Origin: Pseudomonadota bacterium
GTDB lineage: Bacteria > Desulfobacterota > Desulfobulbia > Desulfobulbales > Desulfocapsaceae
DNA: 64,000 nt
Reading direction: 5' to 3'
Assembly (NCBI GenBank): GCA_018817385.1
Contig: JAHIUA010000035.1
Span: forward strand, 248,001-312,000
The notes beneath the pieces are model-generated. The model worked only from the letters and a program-made list of their open reading frames with translations, was not told where the DNA came from and searched no databases. The stretch's first letter is position 1. Every line of letters starts with the position of its first letter. The translations under genes and the position numbers were made by a program. Shown here piece after piece: positions 24,473 to 35,889 of the stretch.

Positions 24473-25609
24473 TCAGTTCTTCCGCTCAAGATTAAAGTTT
24501 TCCAGATAATCACGGGAAAACGCATCATCGGTGGCAATGAAATCGACAATGGCCTCACTGAAGGCCTGCACACACGCCTCATCAAACTGTGTCCCTGCAC
24601 ACCGGTGCAGTTCAGCCACAGCCTCCTCCATATCCATATTGCGACGATAGTTTCTTCTCGATGTCATCGCATCATAACTGTCAACTACGATCAGAATTCT
24701 GGTCAACAAATCCAGTTCGTTACTTTTGAGCCCATCCGGATAGCCCTTCCCGTCCATCCGTTCGTGGTGATGACGAATGATGAACTGCTCTCTCTCCATA
24801 AATCCCAGAGGTTTTATGATATTTGCGCCAACAACCGGATGTTTTCTGATCAGAGTCCACTCCTCATCGTTCAGCTTGCCCGGCTTTTGGATACAGGAAA
24901 GATCTATCACCAGCTTACCAATATCATGAAACTGGGCCGCACGACGCAAAGTAACTAATTCATTTTCCGAAACTTTCATTGCCAATCCGAGCAAAACAGC
25001 ATATTCGGTTACCCTCATGGTGTGTCCAGCTGTGTAAAAGTCCTTCTCCTCCATGGCGTTTTGAAGACTGGACATCAACTGAATCGTAGCGTTTTCCAGA
25101 CTATGACTGTAGGTCAGCAAGAGCTTATTTGTCTCTTCCAATTCTGCAGCCTTAACCCGGATATCCTCCTCAAGCTCCTTTTTGTAGAGGCGCTCACGAC
25201 GGATAAACATTCTTTTTTCGATGGCGCGGCGGATCTTGACATTAAAAATATCAAGATCCTCTATGGGTTTGGTTAAAAAGTCATAAGCCCCGAGGTTGAT
25301 GGCCTTGACTGCATAATCCATGGAACCAGCCCCGGTGAGAAAGAGAACAGGGATATCATAGTCAAAGGTATTGAGAGCAACAATGGTCTCAAAACCATCC
25401 ATCCCAGGCATGTTGATATCCAGGATAACGACATCGTAAGAATCGTCAACCGTTTCGATGACGTCCCTTCCATCAGAAACCGAGGTGACCGTATGACCAA
25501 ACATTTCAAGAATTTTCGACACGGTGCTCCGCACCATAGTATCGTCATCAGCGACTAGTATTTTTGCCTGTGTCCCCTCCAAAAAAAGCCTCTTCTTTTG
25601 ACTCGACAA
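24473..25609 (-). CDS. Response regulator with HD-GYP-type phosphodiesterase domain
   Basis: 378 residues from a TTG start. The receiver domain (about 15-130) has VADDD, the acceptor D64 (VVILDINMPGMDG) and K115. A coiled-coil linker (about 135-165) leads to an HD domain with H228/D229 in FHDIGK and the HD-GYP signature HHERMDGKGYPDG. Such RpfG-like proteins hydrolyse cyclic di-GMP. The start is unusual: no ATG lies before the receiver domain, and TTG at 25607-25609 sits at the foot of a 12-bp hairpin whose loop holds the GGAG ribosome site. No kinase is adjacent, so the phosphodonor is unknown. Confidence 0.88.
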   Translation of the reverse strand: MSSQKKRLFLEGTQAKILVADDDTMVRSTVSKILEMFGHTVTSVSDGRDVIETVDDSYDVVILDINMPGMDGFETIVALNTFDYDIPVLFLTGAGSMDYAVKAINLGAYDFLTKPIEDLDIFNVKIRRAIEKRMFIRRERLYKKELEEDIRVKAAELEETNKLLLTYSHSLENATIQLMSSLQNAMEEKDFYTAGHTMRVTEYAVLLGLAMKVSENELVTLRRAAQFHDIGKLVIDLSCIQKPGKLNDEEWTLIRKHPVVGANIIKPLGFMEREQFIIRHHHERMDGKGYPDGLKSNELDLLTRILIVVDSYDAMTSRRNYRRNMDMEEAVAELHRCAGTQFDEACVQAFSEAIVDFIATDDAFSRDYLENFNLERKN

Positions 25610-25640
25610 AGTAGCATTTTCTCCACAAAAAATGCTACTT
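25609..25640 (-). promoter_or_regulatory. Perfect hairpin over the ribosome-binding site of the HD-GYP regulator
   Basis: AAGTAGCATTTT (25609-25620) and AAAATGCTACTT (25629-25640) form a perfect 12-bp stem with an 8-base loop. In the mRNA sense the loop reads TTGTGGAG, so the Shine-Dalgarno is in the loop. The last stem base is also the first base of the TTG start codon. It may control translation of the regulator; a weak terminator for the upstream gene is the alternative. Confidence 0.45.
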
Positions 25641-25744
25641 ATTGAAAATGATTATATAAAATACGTAACTCACAGTATAAAAAGCAAAACAATTACTTAT
25701 GAGATACTCTTAAAAGCGAAAAGGTAACCTCTTACCTGGGAATT

Positions 25745-26809
25745 CTACAAGTTCCAATATCTTTTTGCAACCTCCCTTGCCTGATCTATGGCAGGATGCT
25801 GGGATTTTTCCTTGGCAAGCGCATCTGCACTCTTTTTATCCAGATTGATGGCGTATCCGGTATCCAAGGGGTGACCGCAGAGTTCTGAGAGTACAGCCAT
25901 GGCTCCATCGCGCATCCCCTTGAGATTATATCCCCCCTCAAGGGTCACCAGAAGTTTCCCTCCACAAACCTCTTCTGCCAGGTGAACCATGCTCCTCGTC
26001 ATGTAGGCAAATCCCTTTGCCGTGACCTCCATTGCCCCCAGAGGATCCCCTTGGCTGATATCAAACCCACAGGAAACAAAGATCAATTCCGGTTTATATT
26101 TTTTACCAATTGGGACAATTATCTCATTAAAAATAGCAGCATAATCCCTATCCCCCTGGTGGCCGGGAAGAGGGATATTAACAGTATAGCCTGCCCCCTT
26201 TCCTTTTCCTGTTTCGTGGAGAGCTCCCGTTCCTGGATAATATGGGTACTGATGGGTGGAGAGATACAAGACCTTATTCGAGTTATAAAAAGAATGCTGG
26301 GTGCCATTTCCGTGGTGAAGATCCCAGTCCACGATCATAACCCGCTTCAGCCCACACCGTTTTACTGCATAGTGAGCACCAATAGCAACATTGTTAAAGA
26401 GACAGAACCCCATGGATCTATCTCCTTCGGCATGATGTCCCGGAGGACGCACCAGGGCGAAACCGTTATCAATCTCGCCTCCAAGCAGGAGATCCACCCC
26501 TCGAATCAAGGCTCCCACAGCCTTACAGGCGGCAGCATAGGATTCCATAGATGTTTTGGTATCCGGATCCAGGCTGTCAAAAATCTTTCCAGCCGTTTCT
26601 CCTACCCGGTCCATATGATCGGCTGTATGATTGAGGCCGATTATTTTACGCGAGGCTGGAATGAAATCCGGGTAGCTAAAATTAGCCCCAATTTCTTTCT
26701 TGTCCAGCACCTCATAAATAACCTGCAGACGTTCTGGTAGTTCCACATGGCCAAAACCTGGGTCGTGGGCCAGGAAAAGCGGATCTCTAAATACAGCTGT
26801 CTTGCGCAT
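25745..26809 (-). CDS. Histone deacetylase / acetoin utilisation family amidohydrolase
   Basis: 354 residues. Class II HDAC-like residues are visible: GFGHVELPERL near the N-terminus, the active-site RPPGHHAEGD with the tandem His, the Zn ligands in VDWDLHHGNGTQ, and LVTLEGGYNL towards the C-terminus. Bacterial members act on acetylated polyamines, acetoin-pathway targets or acetyl-lysine. The ATG at 26809 is preceded by AGGAGG. It is the gene upstream of the HD-GYP regulator on the same strand, 135 bases away. Confidence 0.9.
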   Translation of the reverse strand: MRKTAVFRDPLFLAHDPGFGHVELPERLQVIYEVLDKKEIGANFSYPDFIPASRKIIGLNHTADHMDRVGETAGKIFDSLDPDTKTSMESYAAACKAVGALIRGVDLLLGGEIDNGFALVRPPGHHAEGDRSMGFCLFNNVAIGAHYAVKRCGLKRVMIVDWDLHHGNGTQHSFYNSNKVLYLSTHQYPYYPGTGALHETGKGKGAGYTVNIPLPGHQGDRDYAAIFNEIIVPIGKKYKPELIFVSCGFDISQGDPLGAMEVTAKGFAYMTRSMVHLAEEVCGGKLLVTLEGGYNLKGMRDGAMAVLSELCGHPLDTGYAINLDKKSADALAKEKSQHPAIDQAREVAKRYWNL

Positions 26810-26898
26810 ATATTTCCTCCTCTATGCGATCACAGACACCGAATATTACAATTTCTACTCTCTGTCGTTATAAAAAAAGGACCACAGGGAACCGAAGA

Positions 26899-27495
26899 TC
26901 ATCTCCCCAATATGGTACGCTTTTCAGTCAAAATCAAATCCATTAATTCATCATGTTCCTGCAGAGGGGCCCGATCCACCATTTGCAGCTCATAAGCAAG
27001 TCCCACTCGCAGAGCCTGCGGTGCCTGAGCCGAGACGAAGCGGTCATAATAGCCGCCACCGTACCCCATCCTTCCACCCTGCTCATCAAAAACCGATCCT
27101 GGAAGAAAGATGATATCAATGGTTTCTGGAGAAACCAATTGACGTTCCCTGATAGTAGCTATCGGTTCTGGAATCAGACAATAGCCCGGCGCCAGCTCTT
27201 GCTCCGGATCCTTGATATAGACCGGAAGTAAGGCTTTTTCCCGAACCAGAGTCACTGGAACCACAACTTTTTTTCCCAATACCAGCATATGATCAATAAG
27301 TGGGCGCGTTTCCACCTCAGAACGAAAATTGACATAGATAAAGAGCGTGTCTGCGATGGCAAATTGTTCTAAGCCAATAGCCCTCTTCGTAATCAATTGA
27401 CTGTATTGAAACCGGTTCTCCTTACTCAACGTATCACGCCTGGTAAGTATATTTCGCCGCAAGGTTTGAGGATTCATAGGGTGGTGATTACTCAA
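26899..27495 (-). CDS. 5-formyltetrahydrofolate cyclo-ligase
   Basis: 198 residues; an alternative start at the second Met (27480) gives 193. The family signature MGYGGGYYDRF lies near residue 140, and the N-terminal basic segment RRNILTRRDTLS matches the ATP-binding start of the fold. It converts 5-formyl-THF to 5,10-methenyl-THF. It lies 89 bases upstream of the deacetylase-like gene in the same direction. Confidence 0.92.
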   Translation of the reverse strand: MSNHHPMNPQTLRRNILTRRDTLSKENRFQYSQLITKRAIGLEQFAIADTLFIYVNFRSEVETRPLIDHMLVLGKKVVVPVTLVREKALLPVYIKDPEQELAPGYCLIPEPIATIRERQLVSPETIDIIFLPGSVFDEQGGRMGYGGGYYDRFVSAQAPQALRVGLAYELQMVDRAPLQEHDELMDLILTEKRTILGR

Positions 27496-27635
27496 GTATA
27501 TGAAAAAAATAAGTTAAGACCAAGAAATAAAGCTTGTTAGCACTCTAGCACAAGGCCTGATCAGAGGTAACAGATCATATTGAGAAGGTAATGAATAATT
27601 CTATCCTATTAGACAAGGAACAGAAACTCAAAAAA

Positions 27636-27670
27636 AAATCGCAGTTTCTGATTAACAGAAACTGCGATTT
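27636..27670 (-). terminator. Terminator of the yedE gene
   Basis: A perfect 15-bp stem (AAATCGCAGTTTCTG with its complement) and 5-base loop. On the minus strand it is followed by a run of eight T, 48 bases beyond the yedE stop. Confidence 0.93.
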
Positions 27671-27718
27671 ATCTCCATGTTCAGCTCGAAGCAGAGAAGA
27701 ATACCCCTGACACTTTTA

Positions 27719-28978
27719 TTACATGGGGATGATAAGTTTGTTTGTATCTTCGTTCCAGGTCACAACCAGATACCAGATCATCATAACAAATGCAATCAAG
27801 GCCAAAGTCCATCCATATCCCATAACATCTGGAAGATACACATAGGAACCAAGTCCACCAGCCCTTTCCAAGTTGATCTCATCAGGACCAAAATTCTTAA
27901 ACCAGGTAACCATCAGGGAATTAGCTATACCGAAAAAAGGTACAACAAGTATGAGTTTAATCTGGCCTTCACCTACGCGCCACAGGGTACCGGAACCACA
28001 ACCACCAGCAAGCATGGCGCCAAGACCGAAAATAAAACCACCAACAATGGAGCCCCAACCAAAAGTCCCACGAACATAATTAGAGGGAGCAAGAACAGCA
28101 TCTCCACCATGGGCAATCGGTACGCTGTACTTCAACACTGCAGCACCAATGGCAACTAACAAAATAGACAAGGCAACAGATTTTGCCATGGTACAGTCAC
28201 CGGTCATGTGCGGTTCACGAAATCCCTGCACCATACACCAGCGACCACGTTGCATGGTGTAACCCAATGCGGCAGCGATCATGATGACACCGCCAAGCGA
28301 GGCAATATAATCACTGTCTTCATTTCCAGCATAGGTATAAGCACCCCAGATCAATGCTGCAATAGCGCCTAAGCCCAAAATGTTTTGCACAACATTGGGA
28401 ATATCAATAGTGGCCGAACCATTATTTCCCCAAGATATATATTCCATCTCCAGATAGAGCAGCTTTAGGCCCAGAAGGACACCAAAAGTCAAGCCAATCC
28501 ACATGGTAAAACCGTTGGCGGCAAGATTACCTATAGCATTGTACATACCACCGACATTACAGCCTCCGGCAAGGGCTGCTCCTATACCCATAAGGATACC
28601 GGCAATAACTGCCTTTACCAACTCCCGGTATGGGGGAAAACGAAAGGCAAAATCTTTACCGAGACAAGCAGAAATAAAAGCGCCGCCTACAAAACCAATA
28701 CCGATTACAGAACCAGAGCTTATAAACATACTTTTAGGAGCTTCATCGTAGTAGCCAAGTATCCCCGACTCAGCTCCAACAATGAGATTCAGTCCATAAA
28801 TTATCCAATCACCCCAGTTCCTTATGGCTCCAACAGCTCCCCAAGGACGCCACCAGGCCATTATCAATACAGAAAGAAACGCAACAATAGCACCGACTAC
28901 TGTTGCATTCCACTCCGACTGACAACATGTCTTGTAAAGTGATTTCACTTTACCTACCATCACACTTTCTTCACTCAT
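27719..28978 (-). CDS. yedE: YeeE/YedE-family sulfur-compound transporter
   Basis: A 419-residue inner-membrane protein with two Sulf_transp (DUF395) repeats. Each has the conserved cysteine motif: GAALAGGCNVGGMYN near residue 145, and GAMLAGGCGSGTLWRVG near residue 330. Homologues import thiosulfate or other sulfane-sulfur compounds, with the cysteines relaying sulfur, often alongside TusA. A strong AAGGAGG precedes the ATG. The gene diverges from tusA-dsrE across a palindrome-rich 340-base region, and ends at a strong terminator. With tusA and dsrE it makes the yedE-tusA-dsrE set that I recall from literature on sulfur disproportionators. Confidence 0.92.
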   Translation of the reverse strand: MSEESVMVGKVKSLYKTCCQSEWNATVVGAIVAFLSVLIMAWWRPWGAVGAIRNWGDWIIYGLNLIVGAESGILGYYDEAPKSMFISSGSVIGIGFVGGAFISACLGKDFAFRFPPYRELVKAVIAGILMGIGAALAGGCNVGGMYNAIGNLAANGFTMWIGLTFGVLLGLKLLYLEMEYISWGNNGSATIDIPNVVQNILGLGAIAALIWGAYTYAGNEDSDYIASLGGVIMIAAALGYTMQRGRWCMVQGFREPHMTGDCTMAKSVALSILLVAIGAAVLKYSVPIAHGGDAVLAPSNYVRGTFGWGSIVGGFIFGLGAMLAGGCGSGTLWRVGEGQIKLILVVPFFGIANSLMVTWFKNFGPDEINLERAGGLGSYVYLPDVMGYGWTLALIAFVMMIWYLVVTWNEDTNKLIIPM

Positions 28979-29318
28979 TTCACTCCTCCTTCCGTCAAAA
29001 TAATCTTAGCAACGGTAACCCGAATATCAATCTGGCTTTTCTACTCTTGCCCAAACCTTTTGTCAAGTATCTATGGGTCAAATATCCTATTTATCAAGGG
29101 GTTCAAATTCAAATTTGTAACATTAAAACAATTGCTTATAAATCAAACACACGTTTGAATGGCCATTCATTTTGCTCTTGACATATTCTCCCCCCTAAAG
29201 TATTAGTCTAGACTACTATCCATTCAGGGTTCTCTACGTTACCTGAATCAGGTTGTTTTAGCTAAGTAAAACAGTCACATCGAAGCCTACCGAACAATAT
29301 TTTTAGGAGGAAAATCAA
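28979..29318. promoter_or_regulatory. Divergent yedE/tusA control region with several palindromes
   Basis: 340 gene-free bases. A near-ideal promoter faces tusA: TTGACA at 29178-29183, 17-base spacer, TATTAG at 29201-29206. A 12-bp palindrome, TAGTCTAGACTA (29204-29215), overlaps the -10 box. A 14-bp palindrome, TGAATGGCCATTCA (29156-29169), lies just ahead of the -35 box. TCAAAC-ACAC-GTTTGA overlaps its left side, and ACCTGAATCAGGT (29241-29253) lies in the leader. The palindromes suggest one or more dimeric regulators; none is encoded next to the locus. Confidence 0.65.
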
Positions 29319-29576
29319 ATGAGTGAATACAAAGTTGCTGCAGACGGGATTGCCGTAAATTTTACGCTTGATGCAAAAGGCCTGAGTTGCCCTATGCCTC
29401 TTCTTCGTACCAAAAAAGAGATCGGAAAAATAGCTTCTGGCGAAATTCTCCAAGTCGATGGTACCGATCCAGGCTCACGTAATGATATTCCCGGTTGGTG
29501 TGCCCGTGCAGGACATGAGTACCTCGGTGAGAAAGAGCAGTCTGGCTATATTAGCTTTTTTATCAAAAAAGGTTGA
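29319..29576 (+). CDS. tusA: TusA-family sulfur carrier protein
   Basis: 85 residues. The sulfur-carrying cysteine is C24 in LDAKGLSCPMPLLRTKK, the canonical CPxP box. An IAS..GEILQVDGTDPGS strand and helix pattern follows. TusA-type proteins carry persulfide sulfur between enzymes in tRNA thiolation or in sulfur oxidation and disproportionation; the neighbours point to the latter. AGGAGG lies 8 bases before the ATG. First gene of a four-gene plus-strand operon and divergent from yedE. Confidence 0.94.
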   Translation: MSEYKVAADGIAVNFTLDAKGLSCPMPLLRTKKEIGKIASGEILQVDGTDPGSRNDIPGWCARAGHEYLGEKEQSGYISFFIKKG

Positions 29577-29615
29577 TCTCTTACCAATTTCGATTCTACA
29601 TGGAGGATAAAGCAC

Positions 29616-29948
29616 ATGGCTGCTGATCCAAATAAATTCGGTATTTTTGTGACCTCTCCGCAAAACATGAGGCACGTGGTTGGTATTGCTGAAGCTGTCA
29701 ATAAGAGCGGCAAACAACCTATGATATTCTTTACCTACAAATCAATTCACCTGACTAAAGATTCCCGTTTCAAAGGCCTTGCCGAGATGTGCGGAAAAGA
29801 CAATATCGCAATATGTGCCGACAGTTACACCTGTGAAGGATACGACTCAGTAGCCGATATCCCTGCCGGTCTGTCCGACACCCAGATGCGAACTCAAGCA
29901 TTCCACGGCGCTATACTTGACGAATGCGGAAAGTACATCGTATTATAA
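29616..29948 (+). CDS. DsrE-like sulfur relay protein
   Basis: 110 residues, the size and fold pattern of DsrE/DsrF (FGIFVTSPQNMRHVVGIAEAVNKSG, a Rossmann-like start). Cysteines fall in AEMCGKDNIAICADSYTCEG and near the C-terminus in LDECGKY. The Cys within the ICADSYTC loop occupies about the place of the active Cys of DsrE-family proteins. GGAGG precedes the ATG, 39 bases after tusA. It probably takes sulfur from or passes it to TusA. Confidence 0.85.
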   Translation: MAADPNKFGIFVTSPQNMRHVVGIAEAVNKSGKQPMIFFTYKSIHLTKDSRFKGLAEMCGKDNIAICADSYTCEGYDSVADIPAGLSDTQMRTQAFHGAILDECGKYIVL

Positions 29949-29960
29949 GGAGCTTATGAA

Positions 29961-30320
29961 ATGGAATCTTTAAAAGTATATATTTTGATTGCTAACCGTA
30001 TGTACAATGACGGTGTACGCTCCGGTCTGGGTCTGGCTGTAGAGAATCACTACGGATACCCTGTTATTTTTAAGGGTGAATTTCCCTCTTTCTCCACCTA
30101 CATGAAAGAGAATATTTCCTGGATTATGGATATGGAAGGACAGGTGTACAGCTGTGGAGCTCCTGTTCCTGAGGAAACTTATGATGCCGACCTGGAAGAG
30201 AATCTGATCAAAGAGATAGATCTCAAGGAACTTGGCGAGGCCATGCGGGAAGCCGATTTTATTATCCCTTACGGCCTCCCGAAACAGACCAATGAGCCAC
30301 CACCAGCCTGTGCTGAATAA
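29961..30320 (+). CDS. DsrE/DsrF-like small protein of the sulfur operon
   Basis: 119 residues, not recognised at family level with certainty. The start LKVYILIANRMYNDGVRSGLGLAVENHYG has the strand-loop-helix opening of DsrE/F folds. YSCGAPVPEE carries a Cys at the place where DsrE-type proteins have their active Cys, and a second Cys is three residues from the end (PPPACAE). It lies 12 bases after dsrE with its own GGAG. With the next gene it would fill the places of DsrF and DsrH in a DsrEFH-like complex. This is inference from position and pattern. Confidence 0.7.
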   Translation: MESLKVYILIANRMYNDGVRSGLGLAVENHYGYPVIFKGEFPSFSTYMKENISWIMDMEGQVYSCGAPVPEETYDADLEENLIKEIDLKELGEAMREADFIIPYGLPKQTNEPPPACAE

Positions 30321-30331
30321 GGAGAAAGATA

Positions 30332-30505
30332 ATGAAAATTTTACAAGTGTATCGTTCAGCACCCAGTGAAGAAACAAAAACACTGGTTGAAATTCTGAAC
30401 CGTGATCGTGAAGCGGATTCTTTTGATCTGAATGTTGCCGATCCCGATTACGATCTGCTCGTTAAAAAAATTGTCGATGCTGACCAGACTGTTTGTTGGT
30501 GGTAA
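30332..30505 (+). CDS. 57-residue protein resembling a shortened TusB/DsrH
   Basis: A small gene with a good GGAG site 11 bases after the preceding stop. The product begins MKILQVYRSAPSEETKTLVE and ends DQTVCWW. DsrH/TusB proteins (95-102 residues) begin with a similar LHTLHRSP-type strand and helix and end DY..FV......TV.AW. The beginning and end fit, with the central 40 or so residues missing. The Cys next to the terminal Trp pair is not where the classical DsrH Cys lies. The match is my pattern reading, not a search result. A terminator follows immediately. Confidence 0.72.
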   Translation: MKILQVYRSAPSEETKTLVEILNRDREADSFDLNVADPDYDLLVKKIVDADQTVCWW

Positions 30506-30529
30506 TGTAACAATTTTTTTTATTGTTCC

Positions 30530-30567
30530 CCCCCCTTGCCTTTACCCGCAACGGGGGGATTTTTTTT
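30530..30567 (+). terminator. Terminator of the tusA-dsrE operon
   Basis: CCCCCCTTGC pairs with GCAA-C-GGGGGG (one bulged C) and is followed by ATTTTTTTT. It begins 24 bases after the last stop of the operon. Confidence 0.85.
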
Positions 30568-30780
30568 GAAGAGTGACACCTCTATTATTTTGTCTAAAAA
30601 CCAAAGATCGTTGAAAAATGAAAATTTTTTCCACGCTCGAGAAGCAGACAAAAAAATATTCGCAGCCTATAGATTGTAGCTTGAGTATCGTTTTTTTACT
30701 GTGACGAAGAGCGAGGGCAAAAAGCAATTTTTCGAGATGGCCTGAAAAGAAATCCCTTCACTCTAACTAATTAATCCCCT

Positions 30781-31881
30781 TCACCTCTTTTTTGTAACTC
30801 CTCTCATAAGGATATCATGAAAGAGCGGCCTGAATTGACGGATCATCTCATTCTCCCTGGATGGATGAACTCGGTTTGTCAATAGTACTGCTATACACTC
30901 CTTTTCCGGATCTATCCAGAAACTGGTCCCGGTAAAACCAAGATGTCCAACACTTCTCTCTGAAAAAAAGATCCCGCTACTTGAACCCTGTTTCGATGGA
31001 GTATCGAACCCCAGGGTCCATGTCGATCCTCTTTCCCGGGTTAACACCTTCCCGAGGAGTGTATTCGCATACGCCGGGTGCTGCCCTCGCCCCTGCCATT
31101 GATCAAGCAACTGTTCACAAAATAGAGTGACTCCCTGAAGAGTACCAAAAAGTCCTGCATGTCCAGCCACTCCTCCTATGGCCCGACAATTATCATCATG
31201 AACACTTCCACAAAGCATTTTCTGGCTCCATGGGCACTTTTCTGTACAAACATATCCCTCACCATTAATTTTATTCATACCTGCGAAAAAAAGGTCTTTA
31301 TGGAGCCGCAAGGGGGTATATATGGTTTTATCTGCTAAAACATCCAGACCTTCGCCGCTAATCTTTTCGATAATAAAACCAAGAAGTATAAAGCCAAGAT
31401 CACTGTAACAGTGTTTCGTACCTGGGTAACTATTTAATTTTTCTTCTAAAATTTGACAAAGGAGGGCTCTTTTTCGTTCTCTTTCGGGAAAAGTAAGAAG
31501 AGTATGATAATACTCTCGGTGAGCTGGCAAACCGGAACAATGAGACATGAGGTTTTGAATGGTAATTTTCTTTTTATCCGGAGGACAAAAAGAAAATATT
31601 TCCTCTATGGTTGTAGTCAATTGGAAACTCTTTTTTCCAAAAAGAGAGAGTAAAACAGGGACAGTAGCTAAGGGTTTTGTCAGTGAGGCCAGGTCAAAAC
31701 AATCAGTTTTCTTCAATTTTTTTTTGACTGGGGTAAGCTGAGAATATCCATAGTGCTTTAGACTGCGCTCATATTCCCTTCCCTTCCATTGGGAAAATCC
31801 AAAGCCAGCACCAGGAAAAACTCCATCATTTAAGGAAGTTAAAAACAACTCGTCGAGCAGTAACCCTCTCTTTTCATCCAT
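30781..31881 (-). CDS. Serine beta-lactamase-fold hydrolase (class C / esterase type)
   Basis: 366 residues. The SxxK catalytic motif is SLTK near residue 66 (FDLASLTKPLATVPVLL), with a YSD in the Tyr position (HCYSDLGFILLG) and HLGFTGTSFWIDP in place of the KTG-type third motif. No signal peptide is visible, so a cytoplasmic esterase, peptidase or amidase is more likely than an antibiotic-resistance enzyme. A similar gene can lie beside peptidoglycan-recycling functions, but no partner is present here. It runs away from the origin-like region upstream of dnaN. Confidence 0.87.
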   Translation of the reverse strand: MDEKRGLLLDELFLTSLNDGVFPGAGFGFSQWKGREYERSLKHYGYSQLTPVKKKLKKTDCFDLASLTKPLATVPVLLSLFGKKSFQLTTTIEEIFSFCPPDKKKITIQNLMSHCSGLPAHREYYHTLLTFPERERKRALLCQILEEKLNSYPGTKHCYSDLGFILLGFIIEKISGEGLDVLADKTIYTPLRLHKDLFFAGMNKINGEGYVCTEKCPWSQKMLCGSVHDDNCRAIGGVAGHAGLFGTLQGVTLFCEQLLDQWQGRGQHPAYANTLLGKVLTRERGSTWTLGFDTPSKQGSSSGIFFSERSVGHLGFTGTSFWIDPEKECIAVLLTNRVHPSRENEMIRQFRPLFHDILMRGVTKKR

Positions 31882-32258
31882 TGCTCATTTTTCCCACCCT
31901 GGCTTTTTATATTCACCTTTTTGAGAAATAAAAAGTCAGTTAATAAATCTTGTCTTTTAACCCCATTTGAACTAGAATAAATAGAAGCTTATTCAAGTAT
32001 TATCATGCTGTTTTTCCATATTAATATTTGCTTATATTTCTCGTTTTCAACAACTTTTTAACACCCATTTGTTGATAAAACATTAAAAACTCTGTTGATA
32101 AGCTGTTAAAAAATAGAAATAAACAAAAAACCTCTTTTTTTTCACAACTTATTGTTCACAATAAATACTTTTATTTTAATATGTTATAATTTTTTTTAAC
32201 ATATTAACTACCTTAATAACAATAATAAAAAGATTATTTTAATAAACGGTTTTCCCCC
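31882..32258. other. AT-rich origin-like region upstream of dnaN
   Basis: 377 bases without a gene, strongly AT-rich from 32160 to 32250. It has two identical TGTTGATAA words (32070-32078 and 32093-32101), one mismatch from the DnaA-box consensus and 23 bases apart. TTGTTCACA at 32152-32160 also differs from the box by one base, and lies in a perfect TTATTGT-TC-ACAATAA inverted repeat (32149-32164). A TATAAT is at 32185-32190. Next to dnaN and gyrBA this fits a replication origin or a DnaA-regulated dnaN promoter. dnaA itself is not nearby. Confidence 0.5.
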
Positions 32259-33389
32259 ATGACACTAAAATGTACCGTATTACGATCTGATTTGATAGAA
32301 GGACTGAATAGCCTGCAAAATATAACCGGCAAACGAGCAACACTTGCTATTCTTTCCAATATTCTCATTGAAACCACCAACGACAGTTTAATTCTGACTG
32401 GGACTGACCTTGAAATTGGATTACAGCTCCATGTCTCTGCTGAGATCCATTCTCAAGGAGCACTGACCCTTCCCAGTAAAAAACTGTTCGAGATTGTTCG
32501 AGAGTCAGGATCTGAATCTATACAGATCGAAGAAACTGAAAACAGTTGGGTTATCATCTCTGCTGGATTCAGTACGTATAATCTGGCAGGTATGGCAAGT
32601 GATGAATTTCCCGAATTTCCGGAATTCGAAGAGAACAGTTTTGTTCCTTTTGAAGCCAGTGTTTTTTCGGAAATGATAGATAAAATTATTTTTTCAGTGG
32701 CTAATGAGCAAGAGAATATCTATTCCCTAACCAATGTCCTTTTTGAGGCGGAAAAAAGAGACGAACTCTCTTATATTCGAATGATATCCTCGGATGGCCA
32801 TCGTCTTACAATCATGGAAAAAGATGTAGTTGCAGACATAGAGCGTCTCAATCTCAATCCTGTAACGCTTATTCCCAAAAAAGGAATACAAGAATTAAAG
32901 AAATTTTGCGATACCCTCGACACGGTTGAAATTTCCTTTGAAAAGAAACAGATGGTTGCCAGAGACAATAAATCAATTATGGTTATTCGCCTGAAACAGG
33001 GAGAATTCCCACAGTACAAAGCCATCGTTAATGCAGTCCAATTGGAAAATAAGATAGAAATAGAGCGCATTCCCTTTCTCGATTCACTGAAACGGATCAA
33101 TATTTTCACTGAGGATATATTTCATACCATCCAGCTAGAAATAGAAAATGGTAAGATGATTCTTACTTCCCAAAATGCTGATCTTGGAAATGCTAAAGAT
33201 ATACAAGAATTAAATTATGAAGGGGAGCCCCTTGTTCTTGGCTTTAATTGTCGTTATTTTATAGAAACATTACAAGTAATGGAGTGCGATGTTGTAGAAG
33301 CTTACATCAATTCCAATAACAGCCCCTGTTTGATGAAATCCGATGTAGATGCCGGTTTTCTAAGTATCATTATGCCCATGCAATTATAA
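32259..33389 (+). CDS. dnaN: DNA polymerase III beta subunit (sliding clamp)
   Basis: 376 residues, the standard length, with three clamp domains. It starts LKCTVLRSDLIEGLNSLQNIT and has the RLTIME-type segment SSDGHRLTIMEKDV in the middle domain, closing on a C-terminal SIIMPMQL, the usual MPM(R/Q)-type ending. The clamp tethers DNA polymerase III and repair factors to DNA. No clear Shine-Dalgarno precedes the ATG. A strong hairpin terminator follows, so gyrB is probably separately transcribed. Confidence 0.97.
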   Translation: MTLKCTVLRSDLIEGLNSLQNITGKRATLAILSNILIETTNDSLILTGTDLEIGLQLHVSAEIHSQGALTLPSKKLFEIVRESGSESIQIEETENSWVIISAGFSTYNLAGMASDEFPEFPEFEENSFVPFEASVFSEMIDKIIFSVANEQENIYSLTNVLFEAEKRDELSYIRMISSDGHRLTIMEKDVVADIERLNLNPVTLIPKKGIQELKKFCDTLDTVEISFEKKQMVARDNKSIMVIRLKQGEFPQYKAIVNAVQLENKIEIERIPFLDSLKRINIFTEDIFHTIQLEIENGKMILTSQNADLGNAKDIQELNYEGEPLVLGFNCRYFIETLQVMECDVVEAYINSNNSPCLMKSDVDAGFLSIIMPMQL

Positions 33390-33406
33390 TAGCTCAGCTA
33401 TATATC

Positions 33407-35889
<2,483 letters not shown>

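Follow-up and report, generated by a model that had tools for sequence, protein, structure and literature searches.

Organization of the locus and its gene products

The 64,000-nucleotide stretch of DNA analysed here (the window) corresponds to positions 248001-312000 of contig C82 in a genome of 5.38 Mb (G000, the window genome). It carries a five-gene cluster that belongs to the recently published DsrEFH type II system. The gene of a YedE/YeeE-like putative sulfur transporter (yedE, 27719-28978, reverse strand, 419 residues; PF04143, 4.2e-42) is divergent from four genes of the forward strand: tusA, which encodes a sulfur carrier of 85 residues (29319-29576; PF01206, 5e-24), and the DsrEFH type II genes dsrE (29616-29948, 110 residues), dsrF (29961-30320, 119 residues) and dsrH (30332-30505, 57 residues). 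This divergent layout had been described in an earlier examination of the DNA letters (the sequence-only reading) and was confirmed for all five open reading frames (ORFs), as were two AGGC motifs in YedE, found within LAGGCNVGG and LAGGCGSGT. DsrE has Cys59, Cys73 and Cys104 besides the active Cys67, DsrF ends with the C-terminal tail KQTNEPPPACAE that contains Cys117, and DsrH terminates with CWW. A Shine-Dalgarno-like stretch, read by eye, is found 5′ of the ATG of each forward-strand gene.

None of DsrE, DsrF and DsrH scored above a Pfam or NCBIfam cut-off. Matches of DsrE and DsrF to PF09671 and PF19783 were under the gathering scores and were rejected. Sequence-profile searches of the PDB with the three proteins gave no credible relative: the best matches were the designed protein 8g8i (0.15) and the DsrE/F-like 2qs7 (0.2) for DsrE, 7pvp_A (0.0072; molecule SAKe6BC; rejected, no stretch passing alone) for DsrF, and 1vpk (2.4) for DsrH. 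AlphaFold2 models of DsrH and DsrF were built from alignments of the window and named-collection sequences (A4/A5). Their mean predicted local distance difference test (pLDDT) scores are 93.0 and 85.8, respectively, the tail being the least certain part of the DsrF model (mean pLDDT 69 for residues 111-119). DsrF of the window is predicted to have a DsrE/F-type fold: its model matches YchN (1jx7; Z 9.2 over 96 residues, root mean square deviation 2.8), the DsrH chain of 2HY5 (2hy5_C; Z 8.2), two Sulfolobus DsrE/F-like proteins, TusBCD (2d1p_A; Z 7.3 over 97 residues) and 2hy5_B (Foldseek E 1.2e-3, probability 1.00). The DsrH model had no Foldseek match in the PDB under E 0.001; in VIA its best Z scores were 5.0 (HypX) and 4.7 (YchN), and the matches listed did not include DsrH of 2HY5. 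The expectation that the small proteins fold like DsrE or DsrH was borne out for DsrF. Since the fold searches with DsrH gave nothing significant, its assignment rests on gene order, conservation and published models.

Conservation among relatives is extensive. The gene order tusA-dsrE-dsrF-dsrH is kept across the relatives' loci compared. All 37 relatives aligned (37/37) have a dsrH-like ORF of 57 residues, in which M1, K2, L4, Y7, R8, L18, L33, Y40, D51, W56 and W57 are invariant; Cys67 of DsrE and Cys117 of DsrF are invariant in their alignments (36/36 and 44/44). A DsrF match was found in 162 of the 193 genomes sampled from the order. This breadth, together with the conserved length and residues of DsrH, indicates that the cluster is more than a chance grouping.

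A scan of the sequence collection gave 283 stretches that matched the search pattern; 231 were confirmed and the best 80, most similar to the window DsrE, were kept. The nearest named relatives among these best 80 of 231 are L139 (record labelled Desulfocapsa; DsrE 95% identical) and L140 (an unclassified proteobacterial metagenome-assembled genome; 93%). Candidatus Electronema aureum GS (L160) is also among them. Its DsrEFH type II was assayed in vitro as a sulfur transferase in a May 2026 paper (PMC13293266), which equates it with dsrE and the two hypothetical genes of the YTD cluster; a March 2026 paper models the same double heterotrimer (PMC13047784). E. aureum GS is 80, 76 and 67% identical to the window in DsrE, DsrF and DsrH, 79% in TusA and 68% in YedE. 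Gene order, divergent yedE, the DsrF tail and a 57-residue DsrH with the CWW end are the same. Seven cysteines in all are counted for the E. aureum DsrEFH (PMC13293266), and both organisms have DsrE cysteines 59, 67, 73 and 104, DsrH cysteine 55 and, in DsrF, cysteine 65 besides the one of the tail (Cys117 of the window, Cys113 of E. aureum). The differences are in the host lineage, in the gene neighbours, which are rearranged in E. aureum, and in a second, tailless cluster that the window genome has as well. DsrE Cys67, the clustering of dsrEFH with tusA and yedE, the E. aureum kinship and the predicted DsrF fold place the window cluster in DsrEFH type II; the apparently reductive dsrAB of the genome, a usual though not strict companion of this type, agrees with it. 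The window also has all five genes that make up the YTD cluster, namely yedE, tusA, dsrE and a pair of conserved hypothetical genes. The sequence-only reading was right in assigning the two hypothetical genes to the DsrF and DsrH places, an assignment already in print for the cable-bacterium orthologues (PMC13293266, PMC13047784). Its name DsrE2 for the second gene was mistaken: that name belongs to a different, membrane protein, of which PMC12998232 found none in Desulfobacterota, and the second gene is dsrF-like.

The published DsrEFH type I of Allochromatium vinosum (2HY5) works alike, in that sulfur is accepted from TusA by a cysteine of DsrE and then delivered to DsrC, and its DsrF has a fold similar to the window DsrF model. 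It differs in several respects. The window DsrE lacks a PF02635 match; DsrH has 57 residues in the window and 101 in 2hy5_C; the type I DsrH Cys20 is missing, the sole cysteine of the window DsrH being Cys55; and the partner DsrAB of the window genome appears to be of the reductive type. Cys20 is likewise absent in cable bacteria (PMC13047784). PF02635 DsrE-family matches occur elsewhere in the window genome (C37:86321-86656, C10:6559-6900 and C38:19960-20226), away from both of its clusters.

Two kinds of DsrEFH type II cassette

The DsrEFH type II core exists in two kinds, the one of the window, with DsrE Cys73 and a cysteine tail on DsrF (tailed), and another without them (tailless). Among 204 loci, 201 had DsrE, DsrF and DsrH within the stretch analysed for the locus, and 156 distinct clusters entered a joint tree. 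They split cleanly (support 1.0) in 89 with the DsrF cysteine tail and 67 without it; the sample leans to the window's kind because collection loci were chosen by likeness to the window DsrE. Addition of further genus and phylum loci gave 195 clusters or, less 12 duplicates, 183 distinct ones (98 tailed, 85 tailless). Cys67 of DsrE is found in all 183. Cys73 is present in 98/98 tailed and 0/85 tailless clusters, and no mixed cluster in which Cys73 and the tail are uncoupled was found among the 183. The tail cysteine lies mostly in PPPAC[AS][ED]. Cys104 (97/98 tailed, but also 18/85 tailless) was dropped as a marker, which leaves Cys73 and the DsrF tail as the features claimed for the tailed kind. 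With a looser definition of the tail, 105 of 195 clusters counted as tailed, L282 included, whose cysteine lies outside the PP..C tail; the stricter pattern that replaced it gives 98 and 85. The coupling of Cys73 and tail corresponds to one deep split of the tree, that is to one change, and so is evidence of conservation and not of independent events. The DsrH C-terminal [CST]WW is near-universal in both kinds, the window's dsrH included: 88 of 89 tailed clusters of the joint tree have it (the remaining one is truncated where its contig stops), as do 65 of 67 tailless clusters (one ends with WF and one is without the last residue in the alignment).

The second complete cluster of the window genome, on contig C101 (L032 6928-9389), is of the tailless kind; its yedE is co-directional with tusA and its DsrH ends with ISWW. 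It adjoins genes for a sigma-54-type (NtrC-like) response regulator, a histidine kinase and a PhnD-like binding protein. Second clusters of this type are also found in G096 and G023, and the nearest relatives in the tree belong to genus f5/g17 (support 90), G004 included. Two DsrF matches occur in five genomes of the order sample: the window genome, G023, G087, G096 and G187.

Probable cassette exchange at the dnaN address

The window cluster is bordered on its left by genes for an HD-GYP-type response regulator (named by reading), a protein of the histone deacetylase family and 5-formyltetrahydrofolate cyclo-ligase, and on its right by a beta-lactamase-family gene followed by dnaN and gyrB (both named by reading). 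This address (24473-35889) is kept in many genomes of the order. In Desulfobulbus sp. F5 (L158) and E. aureum GS (L160) it is rearranged, the beta-lactamase, cyclo-ligase and histone-deacetylase-like genes all being 3′ of dsrH on the same strand.

Tailed and tailless cassettes are both found at this one address before dnaN. In the 12 genomes examined of the window's genus (g1), the cassette there is tailed in four (the window genome, G079, G096 and G158) and tailless in seven (two of them partly seen, at contig ends); G145 has no match. Comparison of the window with the tailless cluster of G041, from the same genus, gives 41% identity for DsrE, 42% for DsrF and 70% for DsrH, against 81% for the resident YedE and 89% for TusA. 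The flanking products HD-GYP, histone deacetylase, cyclo-ligase, beta-lactamase, DnaN and GyrB are 82, 73, 68, 56, 79 and 83% identical. At the DNA level, identity between the two falls from the tusA-dsrE junction (0.84, 0.62, 0.54) and is again about 0.7 in dsrH; no drop is seen at this junction between the window and the tailed cluster of G079. Cassette proteins of G187, a genome of another family, are far closer to those of the window (DsrE 79%, DsrF 74%), the flanks including YedE being 42-75% and TusA 85% identical. The pattern recurs within genus g61, where G187 and G181 share 78% in YedE and 86% in TusA but 44% in DsrE and 46% in DsrF; G187, a genome with 5% contamination, has a further tailed cluster on a 7.4 kb contig besides the copy used here (L037, 59 kb contig).

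Gene trees agree with these comparisons. For 122 complete loci (FastTree), the tail split is recovered for 122/122 with DsrE, 122/122 with DsrF (tail columns excluded) and 121/122 with DsrH; the best branch reaches only 91/122 with YedE and 89/122 with TusA. The quick DnaN tree covers the 52 loci in which dnaN adjoins the cluster (31 tailed, 21 tailless); two long branches (L187 and L155) call for caution. It requires at least 6 changes of kind, and strong branches force 3 of these. Shuffled labels need 16.6 changes on average, so relatives also tend to share a kind. The YedE tree, likewise a quick one, has 6 changes of kind, and the grouping of tailed loci in one clade is rejected by YedE (approximately unbiased test, p 1.8e-51) and by DnaN (0.0036). 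On the DsrE+DsrF tree, also quick, the kind changes once and genus g1 is rejected as one clade (1.7e-75).

These comparisons make it likely that cassettes of the two kinds have been exchanged for one another in situ, next to the resident yedE, tusA and dnaN. The same distribution would arise if an ancestral tandem of both kinds had stood at the dnaN address and been differentially lost. Identity of the tailed proteins between the window and G187 (DsrE/DsrF 79/74%) is close to that of YedE/TusA (75/85%), so that the tailed kind does not call for a recent donor, which speaks for the tandem and against lateral exchange. Yet the two kinds stand side by side at no locus among those listed, and the six tailless cassettes of family f12 are scattered on the tailless tree (one clade rejected, p 4.6e-9): the one of G181 branches next to genus g1 (family f1; 99*), four are among family f3 (99*) and that of G127 is at the base of the group holding family f1. 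Because these cassettes fall apart in the tree, lateral replacement is favoured and descent from a tandem is considered unlikely. The gene-by-gene trees of this work point to exchange of dsrEFH; the trees of the YTD cluster in PMC12998232 gave no evidence of lateral transfer. If replacement in place is correct, a marker scored simply as YTD cluster present or absent is too coarse. The two kinds, their exchange and the coupled cysteines are what the present work would add to the published system; they were not found in the open-access main texts searched.

Proposed sulfur relay and its metabolic setting

Comparison with the E. aureum system suggests, with a probability that we put at about 0.88, that the locus encodes a DsrEFH type II (YTD) sulfur relay from TusA to DsrEFH, DsrC and finally DsrAB. 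YedE would pass outside sulfane sulfur into the cell; TusA would receive it as a persulfide and transfer it to Cys67 of DsrE in the DsrE-F-H heterotrimer, which by homology would load DsrC, and DsrC would feed the reductive-type DsrAB of the window genome. DsrAB would most likely act oxidatively, in sulfide or sulfur oxidation or in the oxidative half of disproportionation; homology is also the basis for this in vivo direction of flow. Complex formation, transfer from TusA to DsrE Cys67 and transfer from DsrEFH to DsrC were obtained in vitro with the E. aureum proteins (PMC13293266), whose DsrE similarity to the window's lends weight to the proposal of the sequence-only reading that TusA hands sulfur to a DsrEFH-like complex. 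Judging by the swap pattern, DsrE, DsrF and DsrH would move as a unit, and YedE and TusA would serve either kind of cassette. The window genome has a dsrA above the TIGR02064 cut-off with adjoining dsrB and dsrD (both named by reading), aprA, and, on C93, a DsrC with the two-cysteine C-terminal arm. A second, weaker DsrC/TusE-family match is found at C82:30270-30551 (66 bits; cut-off 53.5). The recently described system may allow sulfate reducers to operate their pathway in reverse.

Several observations weigh against this relay, besides the fold searches with DsrH. According to PMC13293266, none of E. aureum TusA, DsrEFH and DsrC was persulfidated by thiosulfate; direct transfer from TusA to DsrC was also seen in vitro, so that the trimer may be bypassed; and enzyme-level proof that a reductive DsrAB works oxidatively is still outstanding. 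A relay of the TusBCD type, for tRNA thiolation or another housekeeping purpose, would account for the fold common to the DsrF model and 2d1p_A. Transfer to DsrC (PMC13293266), strong expression in sulfur-metabolising cells (PMC13047784) and the phylum sample of 297 genomes, where 54 have a DsrE match and 243 have none, a distribution unfitting for a housekeeping role, make it very improbable.

The name YTD implies a marker of disproportionation, and the sequence-only reading had regarded the cluster in this way; the idea is weak and the evidence does not support it. A cluster serving disproportionation only would agree with its presence in all elemental sulfur (S0) disproportionators studied in PMC12998232, and its proteins are more abundant during thiosulfate disproportionation (PMC9751629). 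Against this stand the near-ubiquity of the dsrF-like gene in the order sample, counted irrespective of physiology, in which 173 of the 193 genomes have a dsrA above cut-off, and the carriers that do not disproportionate reported in two 2026 papers (PMC13293266, PMC12998232). Only 25 of 63 cultured disproportionators have the cluster (PMC13293266), and PMC12998232 rejects its use alone as a marker. A dedicated disproportionation system is considered improbable.

A more speculative proposal is that two mechanistically different cassettes are swapped in place, DsrE Cys73 and DsrF Cys117 forming a second relay or swinging arm between Cys67 and DsrC. The second-relay function of the two cysteines, taken alone, is no less tentative, and the tailless kind would then, perhaps, work without them. 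The E. aureum Cys67Ser complex still loads DsrC, cysteines other than Cys67 become persulfidated, and DsrF is persulfidated by polysulfide, all attributed most likely to nonspecific chemistry (PMC13293266); if the second relay is true, these reactions would in part be a real second step. Persulfidated TusA did not persulfidate DsrF (PMC13293266), which disfavours DsrF as a direct acceptor. A structural disulfide or redox switch is equally conceivable. The coupled cysteines, in proteins for which expression in E. coli is established, offer a concrete target for mutagenesis and could explain the Cys67Ser transfer to DsrC.

No promoter is claimed in the divergent intergenic region between yedE and tusA (28979-29318). 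Promoter-like sites are near expectation (8 in the region of the locus; mean of shuffled sequences 5.9, standard deviation 2.3). Stem-loops of the terminator type number 5 in the region of the locus against 2.7 expected from shuffles; a terminator-like one with 15 pairs and a T tail is found past the end of yedE (27636-27670, reverse strand).

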